Below, piece by piece: positions 340 to 33,109 of a stretch of 33,356 nt of DNA (position 1 is its first letter; each line of letters starts with the position of its first letter). Below the pieces are notes generated by a model. The model had not been told where the DNA came from. It did not search any database and was given only the letters and a program-made list of their open reading frames with translations. The position numbers and the translations under genes are program-made. The stretch lies in IMG/VR virus record IMGVR_UViG_3300029319_000024, positions 1 to 33,356 of that record, one strand, 5' to 3'. The stretch is from a virus.

Positions 340-991
340 TAACGAAATTTATGTTGACCAATCAGGTGCAACAGCAAATATAGATTTAGAACAACTTGGT
401 TCTGGAAATATTATTGGTGGTCTAAATTCTGTAGCAGGAACTCTTACTGCTTTAGATTTAGATGGTATTACTATGACATTAGATATAAACCAAATAGGTG
501 ATACAAACAAATTTCTTGGTGATATATTAGGAGATTCTGTAACAGGCTTTTTTGAATTTGATGGCGATAGTAATACTTTTACTATTCAAGGCGACCCAAC
601 AAATACTTATGGTATTGATAGTTCAAACTATAATGTTGATGTTACAGGTAGTTCTAATACATTTACTTTAGACCATGGCACAAGTGCATTAGCTGCTACA
701 TTAGATTTAGATTGGATTATACAGGGTGAAAGTAATACATTTGACTTTGATATTAATTATGATGGTGGCACTTCTTATGTTGATGTTGATGGTGATAGCA
801 ACACAATAAACTTTACAGGTTCTGGTTATGCTGGTGGTTATTTTTATTTAGACCAAACAGGCAACAGCAGAACATTTAATATTACACAAGCAAGTACCCA
901 AGATAATGACTGGCTTAAAATTCTATCTATTGGCAATAGTGGTACTGTGTGCGTTATTCAAAACGACCAAGGTACAAGCACAAGCTGCTGA
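275..991 (+). CDS. Secreted curlin-like repeat protein (probable amyloid fibre subunit)
   Basis: A 238-residue protein with a signal peptide (Lys at 2 and 5, hydrophobic core 6-19, cleavage likely after Gly20). The mature part is built of imperfect repeats of 22-28 residues, each with a Gly-x-Ser-Asn-Thr-Phe-like core: GDSNTF 97-102, GSSNTF 125-130, GESNTF 151-156, GDSNTI 173-178, GNSRTF 196-201 and GNSGTV 220-225. The first repeats have Gln-x-Gly-x-x-Asn spacing as in CsgA and CsgB. It is rich in Asp, Asn, Gly and Thr and poor in Lys and Arg. Cys226 and Cys238 sit in the last repeat. The start is supported by GGGAG about 8 bases upstream, inside the csgG frame. Being co-encoded with CsgG, it is the likely cargo. 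CsgA-like and CsgB-like roles cannot be told apart; a strict curlin profile might score it weakly because the repeats are divergent. Confidence 0.8.
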   Translation: MKQLKLMSLIVMLTALTIYGADNEIYVDQSGATANIDLEQLGSGNIIGGLNSVAGTLTALDLDGITMTLDINQIGDTNKFLGDILGDSVTGFFEFDGDSNTFTIQGDPTNTYGIDSSNYNVDVTGSSNTFTLDHGTSALAATLDLDWIIQGESNTFDFDINYDGGTSYVDVDGDSNTINFTGSGYAGGYFYLDQTGNSRTFNITQASTQDNDWLKILSIGNSGTVCVIQNDQGTSTSC

Positions 992-2021
992 TATTGGAGA
1001 TATATCTGAACTAAATGGTTCAGCACAAATTGTAAGAGATAAACCTTACGAAGCTAATTTAAAGTTTGCTATACAAAGCAACGATGAAGCTATAACTAAA
1101 AATGGTCGTATGGCTATTACTTTTTTAGATGATTCAACTGTAAAGCTAACTGAACATTCACAGCTTTTAATAGATGAATATATCTATGACCCTGACCCAA
1201 GTAAAGCAAAGATGGCTCTTACCTTTGGACTTGGTACAGCAAGGTTTATTACTGGCAATTTAAACCGCATAGATAAGCAAAACATATCTTTAAAAACACC
1301 TACAGCTAATATAGCTATTCGTGGAACTGATTTTACGGCTACAGTTGATGAACTAGGGCGTAGTCTTATAATATTGCTGCCAGATGCTTTAGGGCTTTCT
1401 AGTGGCGAAATAGAGGTAGTTACAGCAACTGGTAGTGTTTTATTAAATAAACCATATGAAGCTACTACTGTAAATGTATTTGAAAGTTCGCCTACTAAAC
1501 CTGTAATATTAGATTTAACATTAGATATTATTGATAATATGTTAATTGTTACGCCACCTAAAGAAGAGGATATTGCACAAGAAGAAACGGCAACAACTAA
1601 AACAGTTAATTTATTAGACTTTAATGATTTAGATGTAGATTATTTAGCTGAGGATTTGCTAGAAGATAATAGTTTAGAGTTTACAGAATTAGATATAAAT
1701 TATTTAGATGTAAACTTTCTTGAAGATTTATTAAATGTTTTAGATGCTTTAGCAATAGAAAAAGAAGAAGATCAATTAGCTTTAGCTACAGGTGTAAACA
1801 TTTCTGGTACTTTAATTGGTCAAGACTCAAACACTCAAATAACTACAATAGTAGCAGGACAAGTTATAAGTTTACGTAGAAAAATTAGTGAATCCGTACA
1901 AGTAGATTTAAACTCAGGGAACGGCTATACAGTGATCTTAATCCAAGATGGAGTATCTAATATAGTAAAAATAAATGGCGGAGGAGATTCTGTTATAACC
2001 ATTAATCAAAGTAGCGGATGA
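906..2021 (+). CDS. FecR-domain periplasmic protein with C-terminal curlin-like repeats
   Basis: A 371-residue protein. Residues 1-27 form a signal peptide ending VQAQA. A FecR domain covers roughly 55-147, with the signature TPTANIAIRGTDF at 131-143. An acidic linker (about 218-292) contains a duplicated Leu/Asp-rich block: FNDLDVDYLAEDLLEDN at 239-255, then a related copy at 259-277. The tail at 299-370 resembles curlin repeats: IQDGVSNIVKING then GGDSVITINQSSG, close to the CsgB pattern QEGSSNRAKIDQTGDYN. FecR domains usually transmit signals in the periplasm, and in bacteria they are often found beside CHASE2 cyclases, as here. The signal peptide is coded in +1 frame over the last 86 bases of the curlin gene; no other start retains it. 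There is no clear SD, so translation may be coupled. The 3' end overlaps the cyclase by ATGA. Confidence 0.85.
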   Translation: MTGLKFYLLAIVVLCALFKTTKVQAQAADIGDISELNGSAQIVRDKPYEANLKFAIQSNDEAITKNGRMAITFLDDSTVKLTEHSQLLIDEYIYDPDPSKAKMALTFGLGTARFITGNLNRIDKQNISLKTPTANIAIRGTDFTATVDELGRSLIILLPDALGLSSGEIEVVTATGSVLLNKPYEATTVNVFESSPTKPVILDLTLDIIDNMLIVTPPKEEDIAQEETATTKTVNLLDFNDLDVDYLAEDLLEDNSLEFTELDINYLDVNFLEDLLNVLDALAIEKEEDQLALATGVNISGTLIGQDSNTQITTIVAGQVISLRRKISESVQVDLNSGNGYTVILIQDGVSNIVKINGGGDSVITINQSSG

Positions 2022-3781
2022 AGAAACTATTATTGCCTATACTTATAATACTAGCACTACCTCTAGTATTCCAAAGCACGCCTACAGAAATATTAAAACT
2101 TAAAGTGTATGACACTTTTATAAAAATACCAGAAGAATCAGGCAATTTTGTCATACTTAATATTACTGAAGAAGATGTAGAACGAGAAGGTGGTTATCCA
2201 TTACCAAGACAAAGATTAGCTGAAATACAAATAGATTTACTTAATAAAGGTGCAGTAGGTATTGGTTGGGTTATATCTTTTCCACAAGCTGACAGAATGG
2301 GTGGTGATGAAGTATTTGCTGCAGCATTAGAATATGCACCGTCTGTAATAGCTATGTTTGAAGACGGCAAAGGTAATTATCCTGCCTCACCTGGAACTGT
2401 TGTGCTTGGCGAAGATAATGGTGGTATAATAAGTTTGGGAGTGAAGGCGAACCATCCTCTCTTGTCAAATAAAACACTTCAAGGGTTAGCCATTGCTCCC
2501 ACAGATGTAGATCAACTTGTAAGAAGAATACCTCTTTTAGTAAAAACACCTAATAATGAATGGATACCTAGTTTTGGAACACAGATATATAAGGCTTTGT
2601 TTAATGTAAAAACATACATTATAAAAACTAATGATAATGGCATATCAGAAATATCAATTAGAGGAATACCACCTGTAAAAACAGATAGCTTGGGCAGAAA
2701 GTGGATAAGTTGGATCAATACACCACAAACGACATTACAAGAAATGGATGTTGCAGGTAAGTTTGTTTTTATAGGCGTTACTGCAAATGGTGTTATGCCA
2801 CAAATAGCAACACCAGTTGGTTTATTAGAGCCACATAAGATTCAAGCTGCACTTGCAGAGTCTATATTGGTGCAAGATAGTCCATATATTCCTGATTGGT
2901 CTTTAGCTGCTGAATTGGTAATGCTTGTCAGTTTTGTAACATTAGTTTGGTTTGCTTTACATTTACTTGGAATTACTTGGGGTATTACTATTGCTACATT
3001 TTTAATGTTTATAACTGGTGGTTTAGGGTATTACTTTATAAGCAAAGGGTTATTAGTAGATGTATCTTGGACGTTAATATCAGAGTTTATTACAGGATCT
3101 GTAGCATTTTATTTAAGATTTAGACAGCAATATAAACTACGTCAACAAATTAAAAAACAGTTTGAACACTACCTTGATCCACGCCAAGTTAAAAAGTTAC
3201 AAGATAATCCAGATTCTTTAGTTTTAGGTGGTGAGCGTAGGTATTGCACCTTTCTTTTTACTGACGTAAGAGGCTTTACTGCTATGTCTGAAAAATTAGA
3301 ACCAGAAGAAGTTACAGAAATAATGAATAAAGCACTTACTATACAAGCAGATGCAGTAAAAGAGTATGACGGTATGGTTGATAAATACATAGGCGATGCA
3401 ATGATGGCCATATTTAATGCACCTATAGATTTACCAGATCATGAAACTGCTGCTGTATTATGTGCAAAAGAGATACAAGATCAAATAAAACAAGCCAATC
3501 TTGGTGTAGAGATAGGTATAGGAGTTAATAGTGGATATGCTGTTGTAGGCAATATGGGAAGTGAAACTAGGTTTGATTATACTGCTATAGGTGATGCAGT
3601 AAACCTTGCTGCTAGGCTTGAAAGTTCTACTAAGGAAGTTGGAGAAGATATTGTTATAGGTTATGATACTATTCATGTAAAAAACTTTAGTGATCAAATT
3701 ATATTGAGAGAGCTAAAAAGCATATATGTTAAAGGTAAAGAAAAACCAATAAATATTTATACAATAGTAGCAGATGGTTAA
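2018..3781 (+). CDS. CHASE2-domain membrane adenylate cyclase (class III)
   Basis: A 587-residue protein. An N-terminal membrane anchor (4-19) is followed by an extracytoplasmic CHASE2 domain (about 25-290), three membrane helices (about 295-316, 320-340, 344-366), a short linker, and a class III nucleotide cyclase domain (about 405-560). All catalytic positions look intact: metal-binding Asp416 (FTDVRGFT) and Asp460 (YIGDAMMA), base-reading Lys456 and Thr522, and transition-state Asn529 and Arg533 (DAVNLAAR). Lys with Thr is the class IIIb pair and indicates ATP, so cAMP is the expected product. CHASE2 sensors bind unknown extracytoplasmic signals. The ATGA overlap with the FecR gene suggests one signalling unit, with FecR possibly contacting CHASE2. 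The full length fits bacterial CHASE2 cyclases. The 3' end overlaps the lysis region by 8 bases. Identity is firm; the ligand is unknown. Confidence 0.93.
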   Translation: MKKLLLPILIILALPLVFQSTPTEILKLKVYDTFIKIPEESGNFVILNITEEDVEREGGYPLPRQRLAEIQIDLLNKGAVGIGWVISFPQADRMGGDEVFAAALEYAPSVIAMFEDGKGNYPASPGTVVLGEDNGGIISLGVKANHPLLSNKTLQGLAIAPTDVDQLVRRIPLLVKTPNNEWIPSFGTQIYKALFNVKTYIIKTNDNGISEISIRGIPPVKTDSLGRKWISWINTPQTTLQEMDVAGKFVFIGVTANGVMPQIATPVGLLEPHKIQAALAESILVQDSPYIPDWSLAAELVMLVSFVTLVWFALHLLGITWGITIATFLMFITGGLGYYFISKGLLVDVSWTLISEFITGSVAFYLRFRQQYKLRQQIKKQFEHYLDPRQVKKLQDNPDSLVLGGERRYCTFLFTDVRGFTAMSEKLEPEEVTEIMNKALTIQADAVKEYDGMVDKYIGDAMMAIFNAPIDLPDHETAAVLCAKEIQDQIKQANLGVEIGIGVNSGYAVVGNMGSETRFDYTAIGDAVNLAARLESSTKEVGEDIVIGYDTIHVKNFSDQIILRELKSIYVKGKEKPINIYTIVADG

Positions 3782-8414: not shown

Positions 8415-9676
8415 TGGGAATATTTAGCAGTAAAACTAAACAAGCACCTCCAGCAGATGTAATAACAACTCCAGAAACAGGTTACTCTTTTATATCTCCT
8501 TATATGGAGGACTACTCAAGAAGACTTCTTGCTTCTTACTTTGGCTCTCCTGGTGAATATGAGGGTTTAATATCCAGACCTAGAGATATACCAATAGAAC
8601 AAACAGCAGGCCTTACACCATTACAAATACAAGCAAGACAAGCTTCACAAGGTTTAGGTCAATTTATGCCTTTTGTAGATCAAGCTAGAGGCATGATAGA
8701 AGAAGGTGCTGGAACTGTATCAAGTGGTTTAGGTGCGTTACAAAGAGCAGAACAAAGTGGTATAGGTGCAACTCAAGCGTTTGATCCTAGTAGCGTATCA
8801 TTATTTTATGATCCATACGAAGATCAAGTGGTGCAACAAACATTAGAAGATATAAACAGAGCATCAGCACAACAAGACATAGGGCTACGTGATAGAGCTA
8901 TCAGTCAAGGTGCGTTTGGTGGATCAAGAGGTAGAATAGCCCAAGAAGAATTAGCAAGACAAACAGGCAGAGGTGCAGCAGAGGCTGTAGGTGCTATTAG
9001 AAGTCAAGGTTTTGGTAGAGCACAAGATGCTGCAAGACAATCATTTGAAGCACAACAAGGTAGACAAGCTGGACTTGCAAGCTTACAAGCAGGTTTAGGT
9101 GGGCAACAGGCAGCTTTAGGCGGACAACAAGCAGCATTAGGTCAAGGCATTGCAGGTCTAGGACAGCAAGGACAAGGAATGCTAGGTAATCAAATTAATC
9201 TGTTAAATCAACTTGGTCAACAAGGTCAAGCAACTCAACAAGCTGCACTATCAAGACAGTTTGGTGCAGCACAACAGCTTGCTCAAGAACCATTACAAAG
9301 ATTACAAGTTGGTCAAGCGTTACTTGCTGGATCACCAATGGGAGGAATCTCTGGTGGTACTGGTACAAGTGCTTATCAACGTGGTTCTTATCAAGATCCA
9401 AGCACCTTCTCCAAAGCGGCAGGTGCTGCAGGTACTATAGGAACTTTGATTGGTATGTTCTCTGACTCAGAGTTAAAAACTAATATTACTAAAGTAACAG
9501 ACATTGAGCCTAACATTGGTTGGTATACATGGGATTGGAATGACAAAGCTAAAGAGCTTGGTATAGATTCAGAGCCAACAGAAGGTGTACTAGCTCAAGA
9601 GGTATTAGAAGTTAAACCAGATGCAGTAATAGTTAAAGACGGTTACTACGCTGTTGACTACGCTAAGGTATTGTAA
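8414..9676 (+). CDS. Virion protein with C-terminal S74 intramolecular chaperone domain
   Basis: A 420-residue protein. Residues 1-190 are a helical, Gln/Ala-rich particle-protein region; 200-300 is Gly/Gln-rich with near-repeats (GGQQAALGGQQAALGQ). The end (350-420) is a peptidase S74 (chaperone of endosialidase) domain: SDSELKTNI, WYTWDW, GVLAQEV and a VDYAKVL finish. This domain folds a trimeric fibre or needle and then cuts itself off; the self-cleaving Ser and Lys would be Ser350 and Lys355, in the known spacing of five. Such domains usually end tail fibres or spikes, but the body here looks like an internal or adhesin-tip protein and not a beta-helix. It overlaps its neighbours on both sides by TAATG. 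Confidence 0.75.
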   Translation: MGIFSSKTKQAPPADVITTPETGYSFISPYMEDYSRRLLASYFGSPGEYEGLISRPRDIPIEQTAGLTPLQIQARQASQGLGQFMPFVDQARGMIEEGAGTVSSGLGALQRAEQSGIGATQAFDPSSVSLFYDPYEDQVVQQTLEDINRASAQQDIGLRDRAISQGAFGGSRGRIAQEELARQTGRGAAEAVGAIRSQGFGRAQDAARQSFEAQQGRQAGLASLQAGLGGQQAALGGQQAALGQGIAGLGQQGQGMLGNQINLLNQLGQQGQATQQAALSRQFGAAQQLAQEPLQRLQVGQALLAGSPMGGISGGTGTSAYQRGSYQDPSTFSKAAGAAGTIGTLIGMFSDSELKTNITKVTDIEPNIGWYTWDWNDKAKELGIDSEPTEGVLAQEVLEVKPDAVIVKDGYYAVDYAKVL

Positions 9677-19563: not shown

Positions 19564-20326
19564 TTTTTTCTCCTTCTTTTTTAGATTTTAAAGATTGTTT
19601 AAATGCAGTCATGAAAGCTGTCCAATCAAGATCCAAAGGTGCTACCCCCAAATCAACACGACTCTTAGCATCAAATGCTGCGGTATATTTATGAAACAAC
19701 TTACGCTTGCCATAAGACACTGCCCGAGTTGTTTCCTTGAAACCCTGTCCACTTGTACGAGTTGATACCTCGTAGTTTGCAAACAAGTTAAAGTCCACCC
19801 ATTCACGGATCATCGCTGACACTTTTTTATGTGTGGACATCTCCCAACGATCATAGGGCTCTCGCTCTGGATCATTAAAAGTTCTAATGCCTACATGTGA
19901 AAGTAAAATGACGTGCATTTTCTTTTTCTGTAGAGCATCAAACATGCGTAGTAATCTGCCAAACAATTCAGCAGACTCTGTAAAACCTTTACCGTATCCT
20001 AATGATTCAATAGATTTAATTGAGTGATTCATACAAACTTTTTGTTGCACTAACTTCTCAGCCCAATCTGTTGTATCAAAGACTACGGTTTTGTAATCAT
20101 GCTTTTCATCATGCAATGTTCTGATCTGATTAACTATATCATCGTAGCTTTCACATAATGGAAAGGATGATGTGTCTACATAGTTAGTCCCGGCTTCTGT
20201 CTTAATAAAGATAGGCTTGGGTGCTTTACTAGCAAAGGTAGTTTTACCTATGCCGTCAGTTCCTGATACGTTTATCTTGATCGCAGGGATTTGTATTCCT
20301 GTGGTCACTTCATTTAATAGACTCAT
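19556..20326 (-). CDS. Sak4-like RecA-fold ATPase (phage recombinase, AAA_24)
   Basis: A 256-residue ATPase. Walker A is SGTDGIGKTT at 21-30 (Lys28); Walker B is KTVVFDTTDW at 79-88 (Asp84); a later strand ends LLSHVG (about 141-146), the sensor position. Size, the short RecA-like core and the neighbour SSB match Sak4/AAA_24 phage proteins, which anneal or exchange single strands with help from SSB. A family alternative is a packaging or transport ATPase, made unlikely by the SSB, nuclease and helicase neighbours. It overlaps the upstream 66-residue gene by 17 bases. Confidence 0.82.
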   Translation of the reverse strand: MSLLNEVTTGIQIPAIKINVSGTDGIGKTTFASKAPKPIFIKTEAGTNYVDTSSFPLCESYDDIVNQIRTLHDEKHDYKTVVFDTTDWAEKLVQQKVCMNHSIKSIESLGYGKGFTESAELFGRLLRMFDALQKKKMHVILLSHVGIRTFNDPEREPYDRWEMSTHKKVSAMIREWVDFNLFANYEVSTRTSGQGFKETTRAVSYGKRKLFHKYTAAFDAKSRVDLGVAPLDLDWTAFMTAFKQSLKSKKEGEKNV

Positions 20327-20510
20327 TGTTGTCTACCTCCATATCATTCATAGATATTAAACCTTGAGAAGTCATTTCATCTGCAACTGTTTCTACATCA
20401 TCTATTATGGTTAATATTTTATTAACCCAACTAGGATGTAATCCAGGTGCTACCTCTCTTTTTATAGTATCTTTGATTTGCATTATGACTGCACTGTAAT
20501 GTATGTTCAT
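20310..20510 (-). CDS. Hypothetical acidic helical protein, 66 residues
   Basis: A 66-residue acidic helical protein with no recognised motif. The ATG overlaps the previous stop by one base (TAATG), and AAGGGG lies about 9 bases upstream. It overlaps the Sak4-like gene by 17 bases at its 3' end. Tight packing argues that it is real. Confidence 0.6.
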   Translation of the reverse strand: MNIHYSAVIMQIKDTIKREVAPGLHPSWVNKILTIIDDVETVADEMTSQGLISMNDMEVDNNESIK

Positions 20511-20953
20511 TATTGTGTCCCCTTTAATGGATCAACAAAAGACACATAAGGCCTTTCGTTAATCTTAGTTTGTAAACCCTCTTGAAACTTATCAAATACA
20601 TCAGGATAGTTTTGCTCTATCATTTTAGATAGTGCAGAGTCCTCAACATACTTAGTTTTAAAAGGAAATAAGTTTTCAGGTATGTCTTGTTTTACTTGTG
20701 ATAAAAAGTTTTGATCCCATGATCTAGTAACTTTATATTGCACTCGTAAATCTTTAGGTATGATACCATTGAGTTGAACCCGAGTAGATCCACCTGAATT
20801 AGAAAGCCGATTGACTTGTCCATGCACCTCAGGATGTGCAGTAATAGCATAGTCAAGCAGTGAGCTTTGTTCTTTAAGTTCAGCTTGCTTTGCTAGATTC
20901 TTTTTCTTTTCTACCAAAAGTTGTGGCAGAGTAAGTTTTGAATAGTCTTTCAT
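20510..20953 (-). CDS. Hypothetical protein, first gene of the leftward replication operon
   Basis: A 147-residue protein: a charged helical N-terminal half (KKKNLAKQAELKEQ, about 16-29), then a compact domain with VTRSWDQNFLSQVK (about 75-88) and PYVSFVDPLKG near the end. No catalytic motif is seen. Similar unassigned proteins occur ahead of Sak4/SSB genes in phages. The ATG at 20953 is preferred over one at 20965 because GGAG lies 6 bases before it, whereas the earlier ATG has none. It follows a near-consensus leftward promoter. Confidence 0.65.
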   Translation of the reverse strand: MKDYSKLTLPQLLVEKKKNLAKQAELKEQSSLLDYAITAHPEVHGQVNRLSNSGGSTRVQLNGIIPKDLRVQYKVTRSWDQNFLSQVKQDIPENLFPFKTKYVEDSALSKMIEQNYPDVFDKFQEGLQTKINERPYVSFVDPLKGTQ

Positions 20954-20983
20954 TAGTTGCTCCATTTAATAAATACATTGTTT

Positions 20984-21011
20984 ATATTACTCCTATCAAT
21001 TACATTGTCAA
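20984..21011 (-). promoter_or_regulatory. Leftward sigma70-type promoter for the replication operon
   Basis: On the minus strand, TTGACA (21006-21011) is followed after 16 bases by TAATAT (20984-20989). The predicted start of transcription, near 20977, is about 24 bases before the ATG at 20953. The -35 is perfect and the -10 matches four of six bases. The place between divergent operons fits a phage early promoter recognised by host RNA polymerase. Confidence 0.7.
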
Positions 21012-21057
21012 TAGTTTTGTAAAAAAAAAACTTTACTTATTGTATATAGTCAATTAA

Positions 21058-21063
21058 TATAAT
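21058..21063 (+). promoter_or_regulatory. Rightward -10 element (TATAAT)
   Basis: A perfect TATAAT lies about 95 bases before the Cro-like gene. No good -35 at 16-18 bases was found, so it may need an activator, or the start may lie closer to the gene near TATAAA at 21095-21100. It overlaps the leftward promoter region, which would allow mutual control. Confidence 0.4.
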
Positions 21064-21067
21064 ATTT

Positions 21068-21139
21068 GGTGTGGGTAACCCCCTTTATTAATATATAAAA
21101 ATACTCTACTCCCCCTAGCGTATTTAACAAACCCACACC
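21068..21139. promoter_or_regulatory. Inverted repeat, candidate operator pair
   Basis: GGTGTGGGT (21068-21076) and ACCCACACC (21131-21139) form a perfect 9-bp inverted repeat, 54 bases apart. It lies just after the rightward -10 and directly before the SD of the Cro-like gene. G-rich operator-like sequence stands out in an AT-rich gap. A protein bound at both sites could loop or block rightward transcription; the HTH protein coded next door is the obvious candidate. Function is inferred. Confidence 0.45.
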
Positions 21140-21157
21140 TTTCTATTTAGGAGAACT

Positions 21158-21355
21158 ATGGAACTTAAAGACTACATAAAAAAACGAGGTGAAGAAAACC
21201 TAGCAAAAGATTTAGGAGTTTCAGTTGATACTGTTAAAGCATGGAGATATGGCAACAGGCAACCCTCAGTTAATCAAGCTAAAAAATTAATCAAGATGAC
21301 AGGCTATGCTTTAGGTTGGGAAAACATTTATGGATCAGTAGACGAATGCCAATAG
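21158..21355 (+). CDS. Cro/CI-type helix-turn-helix regulator
   Basis: A 65-residue protein almost wholly made of a lambda-repressor-like DNA-binding domain; the helix-turn-helix lies in about 12-46 (ENLAKDLGVSVDTVKAWRYG, then QPSVNQAKKLIKM). It has no oligomerisation or protease domain, so it resembles Cro more than CI. It probably binds the divergent region on which it sits and adjusts the leftward replication operon and its own operon. AGGAG lies 6 bases before the ATG. The stop overlaps the primase start. Confidence 0.85.
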   Translation: MELKDYIKKRGEENLAKDLGVSVDTVKAWRYGNRQPSVNQAKKLIKMTGYALGWENIYGSVDECQ

Positions 21356-23352
21356 AAATAAAACCAAATTTTGTCGGTCAAGACATTCAAAATGATGAAC
21401 GCAAAGATATGCTCATCTCATATCATGAAAACTTTTTTCACTTAATACCATGTGGATCTACCACAGACATTATTCCAGAATACTTTAAAAGCAGACATCC
21501 ATTTGAAGATGATATTGTTTTACAAAAGCGTTGGTCAAAAACACCAAGAGTTAAGTGGGCTGACTACACAAAGAAACAACCTACACTTAATGAAGTAAAG
21601 CAATGGTATCTACAATACCCAGAATGTAATTGGGCCGCTATCACAGGCATAACATTTGTGGTGCTTGATGCTGACACACAAGAAGCCTGTGAGTTTTGTG
21701 AGTCAGGAAAAATAACAAGAACAATACTAAAACAAAAAACACCTAGAGGTGGCTATCATTATTTCTATGCAATCAATGATGATCTAAAGATTAGAAACAC
21801 CACAGGTAAACTAGATATAAGAGGAGAGGGTGGTTATGTTATGGTCAGCCCTTCTTTTAATTATAAATTTGAAGTAGTTGATGGAGCTGTATTAGATTCG
21901 CTTGACGATTTGCCAACGCTAACAAGTCAAGACATGAATGTTATCTATGACTATAACAACACAGGTAAGATCAATGTAGATAGCAAGACACCACTAACAA
22001 CAGATGGTGTTCAAACAGGAATGCGTAATGATACTCTCGCCAGGCTAGTAGGCAAATGGATACTAGAGGGTTGGGGTATGCGTGAGGTTGTTATTAAAGC
22101 ACTTGATTGGAATCAAACGAATACTCCACCTATGAGTGTGCAAGAAGTCTTAAACACAACCCAAAGTATATGCACAGGACATCTGAAAAGAAATCCTAAC
22201 GAAGAAAGTGGTATACAAAAATGGAATACAAGCCAATGGCAGATACAACTAACAGATGATTTAAAAGAAATCATGGATCAAGAAGATCCTATTGAACAAG
22301 CAAAGAAAGAAAATGTAGTTGACAGTGATCCACTAGGGCTTAGGCCTTTCAATGATCCTTTTTGGGATGCTATGGATTCAGAGAGGATTGAGCAGTATTG
22401 GGGAGATGCTTTTGTATTTGAACAGTCAAGAGTATTGTTGCTTGGTAAACCAAAGATAGGTAAGTCGCATTGGTTGGGTGCTTTTGCAGCAGCAGCCACG
22501 ACAGGCACAGAGTTTATGGGTAGATCTTTCTCAAGACCACTCAAAGTTATGTGGCTACAAGCAGAGATTATCCATGAGTTCTTAAAGAAAAGAATAGAAA
22601 TGTATTATCAACCCTTTCATCATGATCCAGAACTATACAACATAGGCAAGTCAAACCTTATAGCATCAGGTAGATTAAGAAAGAACTTGATGAGGGACAG
22701 TGACATAGATGCTATCGCAGAGAGTATTGAATATCATAAGCCTGACTTGGTTATGATTGATCCTATTATTAATTTTTTTAGTGGCGAAGAAAACTCTAAC
22801 TCAGAGATACACGAAATGTTATCAAGGGTAGATAAACTCATTGAACTATACAAGGTGGCAGTTATCATTGCACACCACACAGGCAAAGAAAGAGCAGATG
22901 ATTTGTCGTTCATGTCAGCTAGAGGTGGTAGTGCCTTTGCAGGTTGGATGGATTCAGGCATCAAGCTGTCAGGCAAAAAGCCAAACATAACTTTATTCTA
23001 TGAAGCTCGTAATGCAAGAGAGCCTGAGCAACACTTAGCATACTTTGATTTTGAAAGAGGACACTTCAGAGTGGTAGATGCACAAGATAGTCCAGACGAA
23101 GTAGAGATTGCAAGAGTAGTAGCATCAGCTATGAGCAAACAAAAATTCTACTCAAGAAAAGAACTAGAACTATTAGCAAGACAAGCACTCAAAGAAAACG
23201 AACTAGCATCAGGCGAAAGGGCTGCTCGTTATGCAGTCAGCTATGTGCAAAAGTATTTAGGCGAGAGGGTCAAGAGTCACAATGTTCCAGGTAAGAACAC
23301 ATGGTATTACTTAGCAGACAATGAAATGAAGAGGCCGTGGGATGAAGATTGA
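21346..23352 (+). CDS. Bifunctional primase-polymerase / RepA-like helicase
   Basis: A 668-residue fusion. The N-terminal prim-pol domain (about 30-200) shows VLDAD (106-110, metal-binding Asp), TPRGGYHYF (132-140, with the catalytic His) and LDIRGEGGYVMVSPS (156-170). A linker leads to a RecA-like ATPase of the RepA/AAA_25 type: Walker A GKPKIGKS at 367-374, Walker B LVMID ending at Asp472, and a later IIAHHTG strand (about 529-535). It would lay primers and unwind DNA at the replication fork; no family A or B DNA polymerase is in the window. The ATG at 21346 overlaps the regulator by 10 bases; a TTG 30 bases upstream is possible but less likely. Confidence 0.88.
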   Translation: MPIEIKPNFVGQDIQNDERKDMLISYHENFFHLIPCGSTTDIIPEYFKSRHPFEDDIVLQKRWSKTPRVKWADYTKKQPTLNEVKQWYLQYPECNWAAITGITFVVLDADTQEACEFCESGKITRTILKQKTPRGGYHYFYAINDDLKIRNTTGKLDIRGEGGYVMVSPSFNYKFEVVDGAVLDSLDDLPTLTSQDMNVIYDYNNTGKINVDSKTPLTTDGVQTGMRNDTLARLVGKWILEGWGMREVVIKALDWNQTNTPPMSVQEVLNTTQSICTGHLKRNPNEESGIQKWNTSQWQIQLTDDLKEIMDQEDPIEQAKKENVVDSDPLGLRPFNDPFWDAMDSERIEQYWGDAFVFEQSRVLLLGKPKIGKSHWLGAFAAAATTGTEFMGRSFSRPLKVMWLQAEIIHEFLKKRIEMYYQPFHHDPELYNIGKSNLIASGRLRKNLMRDSDIDAIAESIEYHKPDLVMIDPIINFFSGEENSNSEIHEMLSRVDKLIELYKVAVIIAHHTGKERADDLSFMSARGGSAFAGWMDSGIKLSGKKPNITLFYEARNAREPEQHLAYFDFERGHFRVVDAQDSPDEVEIARVVASAMSKQKFYSRKELELLARQALKENELASGERAARYAVSYVQKYLGERVKSHNVPGKNTWYYLADNEMKRPWDED

Positions 23353-23554
23353 TAAAGACTCTATGGAAGAAGCAGTCAATGATGTTGGCATTGGATTAGT
23401 ATTATCTTTTCCAATCAGCTATGGTTTGCTTAGGTTGTGTAGCTATCTTGAGGTTAGTCTTGTAGCTACATCTGTAATACAAGTATCAGTGTTTACTTTG
23501 GTAGCAGTTGTAAGAAAGTATATGGTAAGAGTTTATTATAAGGAGAGAGGATGA
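23342..23554 (+). CDS. Small membrane protein, 70 residues
   Basis: A 70-residue protein with a charged N-terminal helix and two hydrophobic segments (about 16-34 and 38-56), then a basic end (RKYMVRVYYKERG). It overlaps the primase by 11 bases and the methyltransferase by ATGA. Small two-helix membrane proteins in phage replication operons are conserved but unassigned; no function is proposed. Confidence 0.65.
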   Translation: MKIDKDSMEEAVNDVGIGLVLSFPISYGLLRLCSYLEVSLVATSVIQVSVFTLVAVVRKYMVRVYYKERG

Positions 23555-28892: not shown

Positions 28893-29250
28893 TTTTAATA
28901 TCCTCGCTGTTTGCTGTATCAAATAAATCTCCAACTGCTATGCTTATAACAGGAGTATCAGGATGATCATAGTCTGCATACTCATCCTCGTATTCTGAAA
29001 TGAAAGCTACATTAAATTCTTCTGCAAGAGGATCTAAAATGTAGTCTTCATTGTTGCCACCATAACGGAATAGATCAATGACATTGTCTTGCTTGTCTGT
29101 AGCAAAGTGCAAACAATTTTCTTCACAAATAAAATATCTAGTTCTTTTGCGATCTTTTTCTACAACAGTAAATCCTTGCTCTTGTAAAGATTTATTGTTC
29201 TTTATATCTGCCAAAGGTATTGGCCTTGTTGGTCTGTAATATGTTGACAT
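28876..29250 (-). CDS. Hypothetical acidic protein, paralogue of the 28409-28753 product
   Basis: A 124-residue protein with a basic N-terminal half (KDRKRTRYFICEENCLHFAT), a RYG motif at 62-64 and a strongly acidic run (EYEDEYADYDH) at about 86-96. The central 45 residues match the smaller gene downstream. Two copies of one fold two genes apart in a phage early region suggest duplication then divergence. Function unknown. Confidence 0.65.
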   Translation of the reverse strand: MSTYYRPTRPIPLADIKNNKSLQEQGFTVVEKDRKRTRYFICEENCLHFATDKQDNVIDLFRYGGNNEDYILDPLAEEFNVAFISEYEDEYADYDHPDTPVISIAVGDLFDTANSEDIKNDKTK

Positions 29251-29252
29251 AG

Positions 29253-29345
29253 TTATTTCCCCCTTATGTTTGTTTCATTTTTATAAATTGTGTATAGCAT
29301 AACTGCACTTATTATTGTGTAGCTAATTATTTCTATTATTGTCAT
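29253..29345 (-). CDS. 30-residue membrane micro-protein
   Basis: A 31-codon frame: IIEIISYTIISAVMLYTIY forms a membrane helix and KNETNIRGK a basic tail. AGGGGG lies 6 bases before the ATG at 29345, inside the preceding gene (23-base overlap). The stop is two bases before the next ATG. SD, overlap and a clean helix support expression. Function unknown. Confidence 0.5.
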   Translation of the reverse strand: MTIIEIISYTIISAVMLYTIYKNETNIRGK

Positions 29346-29493
29346 CTGACACCCCCTCTATTACTTCTTCAAATTCAAAACAACTAATATCTCCAAATTT
29401 AACATCAGATGCTAATTGCCTTCGTAATATTTTATAAGCCTCATCTTCTGTTTCAGCTTCTATTTCATCATAATAAGTTATTTTAAATATCAT
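29323..29493 (-). CDS. Small acidic protein, 56 residues
   Basis: A 56-residue acidic protein (ITYYDEIEAETEDEAYKILR) whose ATG at 29493 lies inside the end of the zinc-ribbon gene (11-base overlap), preceded by AGGGGG. Its last codons share the sequence for GVSDD with the end of that gene through a 16-bp direct repeat. Pattern YxDEIEAETEDEAY resembles small phage proteins of unknown role. Function unknown. Confidence 0.55.
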   Translation of the reverse strand: MIFKITYYDEIEAETEDEAYKILRRQLASDVKFGDISCFEFEEVIEGVSDDNNRNN

Positions 29494-29505
29494 CTGACAC
29501 CCCCT
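29342..29505. repeat. 16-bp direct repeat carrying SD and start codon
   Basis: TCATCTGACACCCCCT occurs at 29342-29357 and 29490-29505, same strand. Read leftward, each copy carries AGGGGG, the end of one gene (Gly-Val-Ser-Asp) and the ATG of the next. It is a duplicated translation-coupling signal, 148 bases apart. Confidence 0.75.
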
Positions 29506-29818
29506 TTATTTGTGCGAAGTCATTACAGTTAAAACAAAAACCATTCCGATTTGCGAAGTCTGTTATTGGACTACCACTTTGATCATGTGTAGCTACATTT
29601 AAAGACTTACACTCCAGGCAATATGGTTTTTGGTTTTTGCGATACATTTCTTTGCGAAAGTATTTTGCGTTCTCATAGTCTTGTTGTGCGTATGCGACTA
29701 TGCTATCAAGCATAGATTCAATTTTTATTTTGTTATTGAGCAGATCAAGTAGCAAATCTATTTCTGCTTCGCTATCAAATTTTTCTACCCAAGATTTAAG
29801 ATCCTCAATGCTAATCAT
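29483..29818 (-). CDS. Hypothetical zinc-ribbon protein, 111 residues
   Basis: A 111-residue protein. The N-terminal part is acidic and helical (KFDSEAEIDLLLDLLNNK). The C-terminal part has two CxxC pairs, Cys67/Cys70 and Cys95/Cys98, the layout of a zinc ribbon. AAAGGAG lies about 9 bases before the ATG. Zinc ribbons of phage early proteins often bind nucleic acid or RNA polymerase; the target here is unknown. Confidence 0.65.
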   Translation of the reverse strand: MISIEDLKSWVEKFDSEAEIDLLLDLLNNKIKIESMLDSIVAYAQQDYENAKYFRKEMYRKNQKPYCLECKSLNVATHDQSGSPITDFANRNGFCFNCNDFAQIKGVSDDI

Positions 29819-29830
29819 TTGCTTTCTCCT

Positions 29831-30361
29831 TTAAAATAAATTTCCGTTTTCATCAAACTCCCATTTGTTTGATTCAACATAGTTTAAAAATGTTTCTTTA
29901 GAAAAGTAGTCTTGATTATCTGCAAACCACATTTCAAACATTTTATTTTGTATATCTTGTGCAAAGTCGTTTATTGAATAGTTTTTAGGCCATTCAGATA
30001 TTAATTTATCTGCATAAACTTTTAGATCAGCACAAAAACAATATCCATTACCTTGATAATTTTCTAGTAATAAAGATATATGTTCTGCTCTTTTGTTAGG
30101 TGAAATATAATGATAATTAGAAGTATCTAATTTTATATAACAACTTCTATCTGAATATTCTCCATTAGATAACGAGCAATTAAATTTCATGTTTAAAGTA
30201 TCTGCAAATAATTTAAAACTATCTAGGTTTTCATCTGCCCAAGTATTTATATTATCTCCGTTATCAATCCAGAATTTTTGATATATTTTGTCGCATAGTT
30301 CATCATCTTGTTTTAAATCTTCAAGATCATAAACTGTATATTCTTTAGTTATTGTTTTCAT
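29831..30361 (-). CDS. Hypothetical phage protein, 176 residues
   Basis: A 176-residue protein. The opening (MKTITKEYTVYDLEDLKQDD) resembles phage proteins sometimes labelled antitoxin of a toxin-antitoxin stability system, but no toxin gene is seen and the label is weak. It is rich in Tyr, Asn and Asp. The ATG at 30361 is chosen because GAGGAGAAAG lies just upstream; it overlaps the preceding gene by 17 bases. A frame to 30394 has no SD. Confidence 0.6.
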   Translation of the reverse strand: MKTITKEYTVYDLEDLKQDDELCDKIYQKFWIDNGDNINTWADENLDSFKLFADTLNMKFNCSLSNGEYSDRSCYIKLDTSNYHYISPNKRAEHISLLLENYQGNGYCFCADLKVYADKLISEWPKNYSINDFAQDIQNKMFEMWFADNQDYFSKETFLNYVESNKWEFDENGNLF

Positions 30362-30764
30362 TTGCTTTCTCCTCATAACCAAAGACTTCATCATTTACAC
30401 TTCTAATATCTGCGACCATATAGTTGAAGTCATACTCTTGTTGTTCGTATTCAGGAGCAAACTCTCTATCAACTATCTCCCAATTTTCTACGACATAAAC
30501 TCCGTTATCAAAGTTATCAGTATCAAGCTGTTTATAAGTGCCTACTCCAATAGATAGTGTTCCACCGATATAATTTCCCATGATCTGCGATAGCCTTGCG
30601 ATCGCATAACTTGGATCATTTTGACACCTAACTCCATATAATTTGGCTACATGGAGTAAAGGCTCTACTGAATCTCTGCCACCATTCCAATGAAGATATA
30701 GCGACTGCCAATCTTCTTGCGGTGTGTCATTTTCTTTTATTGTTATTACTGCTCTATTACCCAT
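30345..30764 (-). CDS. Conserved phage/plasmid hypothetical protein (MGNRAVI family)
   Basis: A 139-residue protein with the hallmark opening MGNRAVITIK and then LYLHWNGGRDSVEPLL (22-37), found in many phage and plasmid proteins of unknown function. The middle is Gly-rich and the tail acidic. AAAGGAG precedes the ATG. The conserved HWNGG motif suggests a binding pocket, but no reaction is known to me. Confidence 0.75.
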   Translation of the reverse strand: MGNRAVITIKENDTPQEDWQSLYLHWNGGRDSVEPLLHVAKLYGVRCQNDPSYAIARLSQIMGNYIGGTLSIGVGTYKQLDTDNFDNGVYVVENWEIVDREFAPEYEQQEYDFNYMVADIRSVNDEVFGYEEKANENNN

Positions 30765-30933
30765 TTTTATTCTCCTTTATAAATTGGTTAAGTTCTTTAT
30801 CTTCATACAAACCCTCACAAGATACACAAACATTTAAGTCTGCTTGTTCTTGTATGGCTCTCTCATCTTCTTTCTTGCCACATAATTGACAAGATATTTT
30901 TCCGTTCTCCCATGTGGATTTTAATATTTTCAT
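30757..30933 (-). CDS. Small zinc-finger protein, 58 residues
   Basis: A 58-residue protein with Cys15/Cys18 (CQLC) and Cys36/Cys39 (CVSC) in zinc-ribbon spacing, and a charged helical end. The ATG at 30933 follows GGGGGGAGA by three bases and overlaps the previous stop (ATGA). The longer frame starting at 30945 is less likely. Nucleic-acid binding or host-factor binding is plausible. Confidence 0.65.
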   Translation of the reverse strand: MKILKSTWENGKISCQLCGKKEDERAIQEQADLNVCVSCEGLYEDKELNQFIKENKNG

Positions 30934-31169
30934 TTCTCCCCCCAAACTTCATCTTCAGGTATTTCAATAGTTTTACCACCATCTAATGCCCATTCAAAAA
31001 GTCTGTCTCCCAACAACTCTTTCATTTTTGGCATATCTTCTGCAATAATTTGACACCAAAAATATTCTGTTGTTGTATATCTAATACCACCCATATTGAT
31101 ATCAGTTCTGTCAAAAGTGACCATACTATAATCTTCAAATGTTTTTACTTTAGTAGATTTTGTATTCAT
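30930..31169 (-). CDS. Hypothetical protein, 79 residues
   Basis: A 79-residue protein, beta-rich at the start (SMVTFDRTDINMGGIRYTTT) and helical and acidic at the end. The start follows GGGGGAGA and overlaps the upstream gene by ATGA; the stop overlaps the next gene likewise. No family is recognised. Confidence 0.65.
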   Translation of the reverse strand: MNTKSTKVKTFEDYSMVTFDRTDINMGGIRYTTTEYFWCQIIAEDMPKMKELLGDRLFEWALDGGKTIEIPEDEVWGEK

Positions 31170-31606
31170 TTCTCCCCCTTAATAAGTGTTTCTATTTCTT
31201 TAGTTATTGCTTTCATTTTTGGCACACCATTTTTAAGTGTGTCGTAAATGTATATATGTCCTTGATCAAAATATTTTTCTTCATTATTTTGTTTATGGAT
31301 TTCTGCTATCTTATCTATGATAGGATCAGAACATTGTTCGTAATACAGATAGAAAGAACATTTTTCATTTTCTTTTATTGGCAATTGTCTTTTTTCTGAC
31401 ATGGAATTTATATACCAAAAAAGATTATCTCCCCATGTATCAGCAATATTTAGATCAAAAACAAAGTGCCTAAAACCACCACCACTATGATAAAAATAAA
31501 TATCATAATCTTGGGTTAGTTTTTCTTGGTTTTTTGTAAGACCATAAATCCTATCTAAATATGCTTGTTCTTGTGGTGTTGCTTTTCTTGTTGTTATGTT
31601 GTTCAT
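31166..31606 (-). CDS. Hypothetical protein, 146 residues
   Basis: A 146-residue protein with many aromatic residues (YDIYFYHSGGGFRHFVFDL, 34-52, then CSFYLYYEQCSD). No catalytic motif is clear. ATGA overlaps on both sides and a GGGGGAGA SD place it in the chain of coupled genes. Confidence 0.65.
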   Translation of the reverse strand: MNNITTRKATPQEQAYLDRIYGLTKNQEKLTQDYDIYFYHSGGGFRHFVFDLNIADTWGDNLFWYINSMSEKRQLPIKENEKCSFYLYYEQCSDPIIDKIAEIHKQNNEEKYFDQGHIYIYDTLKNGVPKMKAITKEIETLIKGEK

Positions 31607-31818
31607 TTCTCCCCCTTATTAATTTCTCTTTGTTCAACTCTATCCCAAATATCGCCAAACCTTTCCAACCATTCTTTTTGTTCTTCCGTGTTGTAGTTTC
31701 CACCTATTCTGCTTTCTAAAGCACAACAATGCTCTAGTTCGTTTCTTTCGTAAAAGTCATAAAGAATATCGCACATATAGTTAAACAAACTAAATTTTCT
31801 TTCTTTAAAATGTTTCAT
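31603..31818 (-). CDS. Hypothetical protein, 71 residues
   Basis: A 71-residue charged helical protein (DILYDFYERNELEHCCALES). The start follows GGGGGAAGA, the stop overlaps the next start by ATGA. No family is recognised. Confidence 0.6.
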   Translation of the reverse strand: MKHFKERKFSLFNYMCDILYDFYERNELEHCCALESRIGGNYNTEEQKEWLERFGDIWDRVEQREINKGEK

Positions 31819-32033
31819 TCTTCCCCCACTTGGTTAAAAAAATCTTCAACTTTGTATCGCAAATTAACGAAATCTTTTTGTGTTACTACAAAATCTATAG
31901 CTGATTCATAACATTCTAAATTGTCATTAATTTGGTTTTTAATTGGATTGTGCATTTTCTTGGCTTGAAAATACTCATGGTTTAAGTCTATTAGTTTGCT
32001 AACGATAGCAAGTTCTTTTGTTGATAAGTTCAT
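31815..32033 (-). CDS. Hypothetical helical protein, 72 residues
   Basis: A 72-residue helical protein (LIDLNHEYFQAKKMHNPIKN) with no motif. The start overlaps the upstream stop by one base (TAATG) and has GGGGG upstream; it passes to the next gene by ATGA. Confidence 0.6.
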   Translation of the reverse strand: MNLSTKELAIVSKLIDLNHEYFQAKKMHNPIKNQINDNLECYESAIDFVVTQKDFVNLRYKVEDFFNQVGEE

Positions 32034-32344
32034 TATTTAACCCCCATTTTGATACAAAACTCTATTAGTTTGCTTTCTAGTTTAAGTATGGTTTTATTAT
32101 TAATGTTGTAATGGTTTAGTGCCTTGATAATATAATCGTGCATTACTTCTTTAATATCAGGCATATCTAACCATTCGTTAAATTCTAACTCCATGTCTTT
32201 TTTGATTTCTTGTAGTATCAACTTTTGATATTCTTGTTGATAGCGTTTTAGTTCAGATTTGTATGTGGATATATTTCGTTCTAGTTCATTAATCCTTTTT
32301 GCTGTTCTTGAATCTTCTGTTGATTCAGTAAATGTTGTATTCAT
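32033..32344 (-). CDS. Hypothetical coiled-coil protein, 103 residues
   Basis: A 103-residue protein with a long N-terminal coiled coil (RINELERNISTYKSELKRYQ, 17-36, continuing to about 50) and a second helical part ending LIEFCIKMGVK. The SD is GGGGGAAGA. It overlaps its upstream neighbour by ATGA and its downstream one by one base. Probably oligomeric; role unknown. Confidence 0.65.
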   Translation of the reverse strand: MNTTFTESTEDSRTAKRINELERNISTYKSELKRYQQEYQKLILQEIKKDMELEFNEWLDMPDIKEVMHDYIIKALNHYNINNKTILKLESKLIEFCIKMGVK

Positions 32345-32655
32345 TCTTCCCCCTTATAAATTCTATCTTCTGTAAATTGAACTAACTCTTTTGTTTGTAT
32401 TAATTCTTCTTTTGTATCTTCATACATTAACGGAAAGTTAATACCAAATTCTTTTTTAAGATATTCAATATCTCCTATAGAAAAATGTTCAAAGAGTTCT
32501 ACAACACCCCATTCATTATTTCCTGTTCCTCTAAAATCATTATATTCTAGGATAGGTTCAGTCCATTTGTTGTTAAATTTACATTTGGTTAATCTCCAAT
32601 CACACCAATCGTTGCCAACAACTTTGGTTAATACTATTTCTTTTTTTGTATTCAT
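32341..32655 (-). CDS. Hypothetical protein, first gene of the leftward small-gene operon
   Basis: A 104-residue protein with Trp-rich N-terminal half (GNDWCDWRLTKCKFNNKWTE) and an acidic helical end. The ATG at 32655 is chosen over 32682 because AAAAGGAG lies about 7 bases before it. It is the first gene after the leftward promoter. First genes of phage early operons often act on the host, but nothing in the sequence shows its target. Confidence 0.65.
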   Translation of the reverse strand: MNTKKEIVLTKVVGNDWCDWRLTKCKFNNKWTEPILEYNDFRGTGNNEWGVVELFEHFSIGDIEYLKKEFGINFPLMYEDTKEELIQTKELVQFTEDRIYKGEE

Positions 32656-32686
32656 ATTTGTTCTCCTTTTAATTAAATACAAGGTA

Positions 32687-32716
32687 ATTATACTATACTT
32701 TTATACACTTCTCCAA
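32687..32716 (-). promoter_or_regulatory. Probable leftward promoter of the small-gene operon
   Basis: On the minus strand a perfect TATAAT (32687-32692) lies about 32 bases before the ATG at 32655. A weak -35, TTGGAG (32711-32716), is 18 bases upstream. It is the only clear -10 before the first leftward gene. Confidence 0.5.
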
Positions 32717-32842
32717 CAAATAATAGACAAACTTTAATGATAAGCATAGATAAAACAAACACTCAATAAACACTCTTTTATTGTCTTGATCCACCTCGCC
32801 CACCCAAGACCAAAAATTTTTGAACTATAAAATGTTCGGATT

Positions 32843-32979
32843 TTGCGACCTTTTGCATTTTTTTTTGATCAAAACAAGCACTAGAGTTAATTAAGATCCC
32901 AAACTTGCGACCTTTTGCGTTCTAAATAAAATTTGCGAGCCGTTGCGTTCTAAAAATGTGCGACCCTTTGCGTTTTAAA
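32843..32979 (+). repeat. Four imperfect 22-bp direct repeats (iterons)
   Basis: Units share TTGCGACC, a T-rich spacer and TTGCGTT, then TTCTAAA. Copies: 32843-32860 (shorter, ends TTGCATTT), 32905-32926, 32933-32954 and 32958-32979. The last three start 28 and 25 bases apart. They lie in one orientation next to AT-rich DNA. They may bind a replication initiator or a regulator. Confidence 0.75.
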
Positions 32980-33015
32980 AATATATAAAATAAAAAATTC
33001 CTGGAGTTATTAAAC

Positions 33016-33033
33016 TTGTTATAGATATAACAA
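33016..33033. promoter_or_regulatory. Inverted repeat, possible operator
   Basis: TTGTTAT (33016-33022), AGAT, ATAACAA (33027-33033): a perfect 7-bp inverted repeat 36 bases before the rightward -10. It could be a repressor site for the gene at 33110. Confidence 0.4.
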
Positions 33034-33068
33034 TTAAAAAAACAGATCAAACATGACCTAAAAAATGT

Positions 33069-33074
33069 TATAAT
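33069..33074 (+). promoter_or_regulatory. Rightward -10 element (TATAAT)
   Basis: A perfect TATAAT lies 36 bases before the ATG at 33110. No clear -35 was found at 16-18 bases upstream. It is the likely promoter of the last gene. Confidence 0.45.
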
Positions 33075-33109
33075 TGCTGCTGTAATTAATTAAAAAGGAG
33101 AACTTAATT

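Follow-up and report, generated by a model that had tools for sequence, protein, structure and literature searches.

The inverted repeat between two divergent genes of an uncultured marine phage is, as judged by comparison with its relatives, the outer stem (P1) of an RNA leader on the mRNA of a Cro-like gene and a primase gene, formed in the rightward strand. A preliminary description had read it as part of a DNA-level genetic switch. The perfect 9-bp repeat itself stands (arms 21068-21076 and 21131-21139, 54 nt apart), as an RNA stem and not as a DNA dyad: its arms covary, its mismatches on the rightward strand include G·U but no A·C, and its spacing from the −10 element hardly varies, at the start of the transcript. 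Our preferred reading, to which we give about even odds (roughly 50%), is a structured 5' leader of an early mRNA, whose 5'-terminal stem-loop would block 5'-end-dependent decay, together with autoregulation by the Cro-like protein. A strongly covarying RNA element is thereby newly described for a group of uncultured marine phages.

The phage and its divergent locus

The window, which is the whole stretch of 33,356 nucleotides analysed here, comprises bases 1-33356 of a source record of 73,876 bases. It belongs to a tailed phage, in which genes for terminase, portal and capsid are present. The closest terminases are those of phage 023Pt_psg01 (62.0%), DSL-LC04 (60.8%) and the Pelagibacter phages HTVC023P (58.9%) and HTVC027P (58.8%); the phage is one of a group of uncultured marine phages, and its own terminase is about 59-62% identical to those of HTVC023P-type pelagiphages and their kin. 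About 190 bp separate the leftward gene from the rightward Cro-like gene, and the features of the locus are as follows.

20510-20965, minus strand: divergent gene of unassigned function, 151 aa, likelier start at 20953; its homologue has the stem leader in L276-L281
20984-21011, minus strand: leftward promoter, −35 TTGACA (21011-21006), −10 TAATAT (20989-20984), 16-bp spacer; conserved
21032-21060, plus strand: rightward promoter, −35 TTTACT (21032-21037), −10 TAATAT (21055-21060), 17-bp spacer; conserved
21032-21046, no strand assigned: candidate Cro-like operator TTTAC-TTATT-GTATA, over the rightward −35; dyad TTTAC-N5-GTAAA in relatives
21068-21076, plus strand: 5' arm of leader stem P1, from inverted repeat, covariation and distance to the −10; G21068 is the presumed +1
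21099-21125, plus strand: inner hairpin of the MFE fold, apical loop CTCCCCC, C-run at 21111-21115
21131-21139, plus strand: 3' arm of P1, from inverted repeat and covariation
21149-21153, plus strand: Shine-Dalgarno (SD) sequence AGGAG, read from the sequence, outside P1
21158-21355, plus strand: Cro-like, putative helix-turn-helix (HTH) protein, 65 aa, from the ORF and from profile and structure comparisons
21346-23352, plus strand: primase-polymerase/AAA gene, whose start overlaps the end of the Cro-like gene
29248-32353, minus strand: block of small leftward genes, eight with GGGGG SD sites complementary to the C-run (speculative partner)

Among 50,697 phage records we found no close DNA record for 20500-23400 and no relatives of either the Cro-like protein or that of 151 aa; primase identity was at most 32.2% in the best 20 of 49 matching phage records. 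Relatives of the locus came from three IMG/VR scans (the best 80 of 114, the best 80 of 314 and the best 80 of 81), which yielded at least 219 Cro-like loci, counting overlapping loci of the same contigs and after removal of four with less than 130 nt upstream. These loci have 69 distinct 130-nt upstream regions; counts by sequence are inflated by relatedness. One relative is on a GTDB contig assigned to a Neomarinimicrobiota bin.

The phage also carries a FecR-domain gene and a CHASE2-adenylate/guanylate cyclase gene (906-3781 in the window; 7975-11583 in L142). A second copy of this region, 74-87% identical, lies near 61-65 kb of the record and reflects either a duplication or a chimeric assembly. 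A second divergent intergenic region, at 32683-33109, contains several TTGCGACCTTTTGCGTT-like repeats, perhaps iterons or binding sites.

Divergent promoters

The preliminary description had placed divergent promoters next to a single Cro-like regulator, an arrangement that our analysis supports for a Cro/HTH_3-like protein. The near-consensus leftward promoter that it reported, TTGACA-16-TAATAT at 21011-20984, is conserved in all 64 distinct relatives with enough sequence, in a search left free over spacings of 15-18. The rightward TATAAT that it proposed is present at 21058-21063 but is not conserved, relatives having TATTGT, GATGAT or other hexamers there; the conserved −10, TAATAT, lies 3 bp to its left. 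A rightward promoter of the form TTTACW-like, N17/18, TAnnnT is found in 65 of 66 relatives, the remaining one being truncated, with a spacer of 17 in 22 and of 18 in 4 of 26 distinct combinations. As bare patterns, such elements do not exceed chance: positions 20000-22500 contain 8 promoter-like sites against 10.3 ± 3.5 in shuffles, and 901 bases contain 22 inverted pairs of at least 8 nt, one of them a perfect pair of 11 nt. It is because of their conservation in relatives that we count the promoters and the repeat as real.

Covariation of the inverted repeat

A stem occurs at the equivalent place in 66 of the 69 distinct upstream regions, reduced in L226 to only 6 uninterrupted base pairs. 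Its 27 distinct 9-bp arm pairs (for example GGTGTGGGT/ACCCACACC, GATGCGCTT/AAGCGCATC, GACACACTT/AAGTGTGTC and GACGCGACT/GGTCGCGTC) were trimmed to begin with a G-C pair; the arms of L043, L245 and L248, for which the automatic search preferred another stem, were set by hand. Arms match their own partner at 8.85 of 9 positions, compared to 6.86 for swapped partners and a maximum of 7.89 in 5000 permutations of the 27 pairs. Among the relatives that show these concerted changes, the Cro-like proteins share 75-97% identity. Read on the rightward strand, the 243 pair cells comprise 213 Watson-Crick pairs, 26 G·U, no A·C and 4 others, i.e. 239 of 243 are paired. Since a constraint on DNA would make no difference between G·T and A·C, and the bias would be reversed in an RNA of the opposite strand, this points to selection of the stem in the rightward RNA.

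Given two alignments, A2 (22 sequences, 21 distinct) and A3 (22 sequences), which together cover 44 of the 66 regions, RNAalifold returned P1 unprompted in each, with no other covarying helix; in A2 it added a 4-bp helix without any double change. In A3, 97.5% of the cells are paired, 8 of 11 pairs show double changes and the covariation score is 0.597 (shuffled 0.295), while the corresponding values for A2 are 98.9%, 4 of 9 and 0.327 (shuffled 0.212). None of 500 shuffles of either alignment reached its score, and versions slid along the sequence reached at most 0.204 (A3) and 0.160 (A2). Changes in ten pairs were also reconstructed by parsimony, using a tree built from 64 downstream coding sequences and leaving out two regions whose downstream part was too short. 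This gave roughly 25 double changes, 24 gains or losses of a G·U pair and 7 breaks, with tied ancestral states resolved arbitrarily. Rfam gave no match at the gathering score for 20900-21400 (best E 0.8) and none up to E 0.5 for 12 relatives, and we found no description of the leader element in literature searches.

Position at the transcript start

In 26 distinct combinations of promoter and stem, the stem follows the −10 at a distance of 7 nt in 21 cases, 8 nt in 3, 9 nt in 1 and 22 nt in 1. Usual distances from −10 to +1 place the start of transcription at the first stem base. This base is a G in all 27 arm pairs, a constancy that is partly by construction, as the arms were trimmed to a G-C start. 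The +1 of the rightward mRNA is thus likely to be the first stem base, G21068 in the window, and since the stem lies 7 nt past the −10, the transcript would open with it. The 22-nt gap is confined to L066 and L070, where a further small hairpin, GCTTTGTGGAAAGC, separates P1 from the −10, so that here the 5' end would be either free or closed off by this other hairpin.

The leader interior

P1 has 9-15 bp, and its loop, about 30-70 nt long, contains C (23.6%) about twice as often as G (12.0%). Runs of at least four C occur in 39 of the 66 loops, against 6.05 expected from shuffles (maximum 14 in 300), and in 26 of 26 loops of the window's clade; in predicted folds of the 39 loops the run is 95% unpaired. 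The inner hairpin that presents it in the window is missing in L240 and is not part of the RNAalifold consensus. When folded alone, all ten leaders tried form P1; once 40 nt of the coding sequence are included, the predicted P1 yields to other folds in L075, L080, L226 and L228. In most of alignment A3 (the L067-L264 clade), the sequence CCUCCUU, which matches the 16S anti-Shine-Dalgarno core exactly, is kept directly ahead of P1's 3' arm.

Several other roles for the leader were rejected. An AUGGU after the 5' arm in one clade is either out of frame or followed by stops that differ among relatives, as read from the sequences, which speaks against a leader peptide. The GC stem and T run of an intrinsic terminator or attenuator are absent. 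Sequestration of the SD, including by an anti-SD pseudoknot, was not supported, as pairing between loop and SD does not go beyond that of shuffled loops.

A stem on the opposite gene

Three of the 69 distinct upstream regions (L276-L281), as well as L282, have no stem before the Cro-like gene. In L276-L281 the same two genes adjoin and the Cro-like gene has almost no leader; here it is the homologue of the leftward 151-aa gene that carries a 13-bp stem (GTTGAGGGTTGTA/TACAACCCTCAAC), 7 nt after its −10 and before AAGGAG. L282 has the stem before neither gene. By our reading of the sequences, the Cro-like mRNA seems almost leaderless in both L276-L281 and L282, with the ATG about 7-10 nt past the predicted −10. 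The stem on the opposite gene in this sister group amounts to a natural experiment on its role.

A descriptor combining promoter, G-starting stem, SD and start codon, built after the examples were known, was run on both strands of about 1.4 Mb of overlapping loci. It gave 215 matches, of which 209 precede the Cro-like gene, 6 the leftward homologue and none any other place. A looser scan of the phage's own record returned nothing but this leader and a single other stem, which lies within an ORF (9069-9169).

The Cro-like protein and its candidate operator

The Cro-like gene of the preliminary description is confirmed at 21158-21355 and encodes a putative HTH protein of 65 aa, with an HTH_3 score (22.6 bits) just under the cut-off of 23. 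The Cro profile PF09048 scored 15.0 against a cut-off of 32.7, whereas a profile search of the PDB found 'Regulatory protein cro' (2a63, E 0.0022). The predicted structure is all-helical (pLDDT 76.7, pTM 0.57), and its Foldseek matches are mostly HTH regulators, with probabilities up to 1.00 and a best E of 0.094. Because the score falls just short of the HTH_3 cut-off and model confidence is moderate, 'Cro-like' is used as a working name and not as proven membership.

As an operator, the dyad TTTAC-N5-GTAWA over the rightward −35 is a better candidate than the inverted repeat, but its signal, from 17 distinct sites, is weak: its arms match their own partner at 3.53 of 5 positions, compared to 3.34 when permuted (fraction 0.036). 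The Cro-like protein probably acts through this candidate dyad as a repressor of both back-to-back promoters.

A search of the whole record agrees with the earlier remark that no repressor or integrase was seen: the 73,876 bases, which may be incomplete, contain no integrase (PF00589), resolvase (PF00239), S24 repressor (PF00717) or second HTH_3 protein. This makes a timing role outside lysogeny reasonable.

Proposed function and alternative explanations

In the mechanism we propose, a sigma70-type promoter, TTTACT-N17-TAATAT, would start transcription at the first G of the repeat or right beside it, and the mRNA would begin with P1, leaving the ribosome-binding site downstream and outside the stem. 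The blunt 5'-terminal stem would deny a single-stranded 5' end to RNA pyrophosphohydrolase and RNase E, and the early mRNA would live longer yet stay translatable, while the Cro-like protein would set transcription from both back-to-back promoters. According to the accessible part of PMC3997798, RppH and RNase E depend on single-stranded 5' ends, which accounts for stabilisation by 5' structure. We favour such a shield because the stem sits at the presumed +1, its sequence is free while its pairing is fixed, its interior tolerates insertions and deletions, and the SD lies outside it. What the comparisons show is the stem at the RNA level, its strand, its almost constant spacing from the −10 and its separation from the SD; we infer the precise +1, a gain in stability, the operator and which enzymes of the host take part. 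A mere shield needs neither the C-run nor CCUCCUU, so that a further function of the leader is likely.

An alternative explanation is a translational switch, in which the leader, alone or with a protein or ligand, hides or reveals the ribosome-binding site, for instance through an H-type pseudoknot between CUCC(U) and AGGAG. CTCCT is found in 30 of the 66 loops, the place of CCUCCUU before the 3' arm is kept in most of A3, and L016 and L035 could form 7 bp between loop and SD. Yet over all loops this pairing has a mean z of 0.006 against 200 shuffled loops each (p<0.05 in 2 of 66; z +0.41 in the window), changes of the SD from AAGGAG to TTAGGAG are not matched in the loop, P1 leaves the SD outside, and there is no Rfam riboswitch match, which makes a switch of this kind rather unlikely. 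Another possibility is that the C-run loop acts in trans as an anti-SD, pairing with the GGGGG SDs of the small leftward block and lowering or timing their translation. The window's loop CUCCCCCU complements AGGGGGAG at every position (−17.3 kcal/mol, compared to −5.8 for its own SD). Four phages of the subclade have 8, 8, 8 and 10 GGGGG sites, which their own loops would bind with −14.5 to −16.4 kcal/mol, compared to −9.2 to −10.7 for shuffled loops, and the enrichment and unpaired state of the C-run fit such a role. Against this, the 4.5 kb examined in L016-type phages, which have the C-run, contain no GGGGG-SD genes, L240 lacks the hairpin that bears the C-run, and it would be unusual for a messenger leader to act in trans. 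The association of C-run and GGGGG is also phylogenetically confounded, as coverage outside the subclade is poor: the pattern occurs in 14 of 36 records searched, mostly fragments. In four related named phages it has 0-4 matches each. We therefore regard pairing in trans as doubtful, and equally so a dual-purpose leader, whose stem would guard the Cro-like/primase mRNA while its C-run silences the GGGGG-SD genes. If it were true, turning on the Cro/primase operon would turn off the small-gene block by RNA pairing, and the mRNA of an early gene would be a regulator of another operon. The GGGGG SD (AAGGGGGAGAAATG type) is in itself a repeated start-associated motif of the subclade, seen also in records G002, G008 and G009.

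Two further explanations are still harder to reconcile with the comparisons. The leader might be an antitermination RNA like HK022 put, which in nascent form would bind RNA polymerase and carry it through the terminators of the early operon; as with putL in the accessible text of PMC9378689, a structured RNA opens the early transcript. Here, though, only P1 is kept, with free sequence and an interior that can be deleted (L240), and the stem is on only one of the two divergent transcripts, which renders antitermination very improbable. The DNA-level dyad operator for the Cro-like protein, as originally proposed, draws on the location of the repeat beside the Cro-like gene and between divergent genes. 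It is scarcely tenable in view of arms that differ among phages with near-identical HTH proteins, a spacing between them that varies over tens of bases, the imbalance of G·U over A·C, the place of the repeat downstream of the presumed start and not over the promoter, and its absence from L276-L281 and L282, which nonetheless have a Cro-like gene and a TTTAC-type −35.

Comparison with known systems

In the lambda-type cro/PR switch, a Cro-like HTH gene is the first of the rightward early operon and the promoters lie back to back. Both features recur in our phage, which differs in that CI and integrase were not found in the record and no operator triplet was seen. The ompA and papA leaders of E. 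coli reportedly stabilise mRNA by a 5'-terminal stem-loop (Emory, Bouvet and Belasco 1992, as referenced in PMC3997798). With these the phage leader shares a stem at the 5' end of the transcript, a free ribosome-binding site downstream and a primary sequence of little importance. It differs in belonging to an early mRNA, in its long C-rich interior with a recurrent C-run and in its occurrence on either divergent gene, and here stabilisation is our inference.

The leader pseudoknot of T4 gene 32 is likewise a structured leader before the ribosome-binding site of a phage replication gene; that pseudoknot is bound by the gene product, according to the available portion of PMC3014915, whereas a loop-SD pseudoknot signal is absent from our leader. 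HK022 putRNA, as far as the accessible sections of PMC9378689 describe it, is also a structured RNA at the start of phage early transcripts, but it consists of two stem-loops of conserved sequence and is present on both early transcripts, and at our locus no put-like element with a shared sequence was found on the two. The ESAS of Cluster K mycobacteriophages resemble the leader in being imperfect inverted repeats with a variable spacer, located before the ribosome-binding sites of phage genes (PMC3203893 and PMC11373665, in the text available). In the same text, ESAS repeats keep one consensus per subcluster and include the promoter hexamers, and the authors, in the accessible part of PMC3203893, see little support for mRNA hairpins. 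The arms of our leader, in contrast, covary and are placed after the promoter, and a pattern that is easily taken for a DNA operator can thus be the leader of an mRNA.
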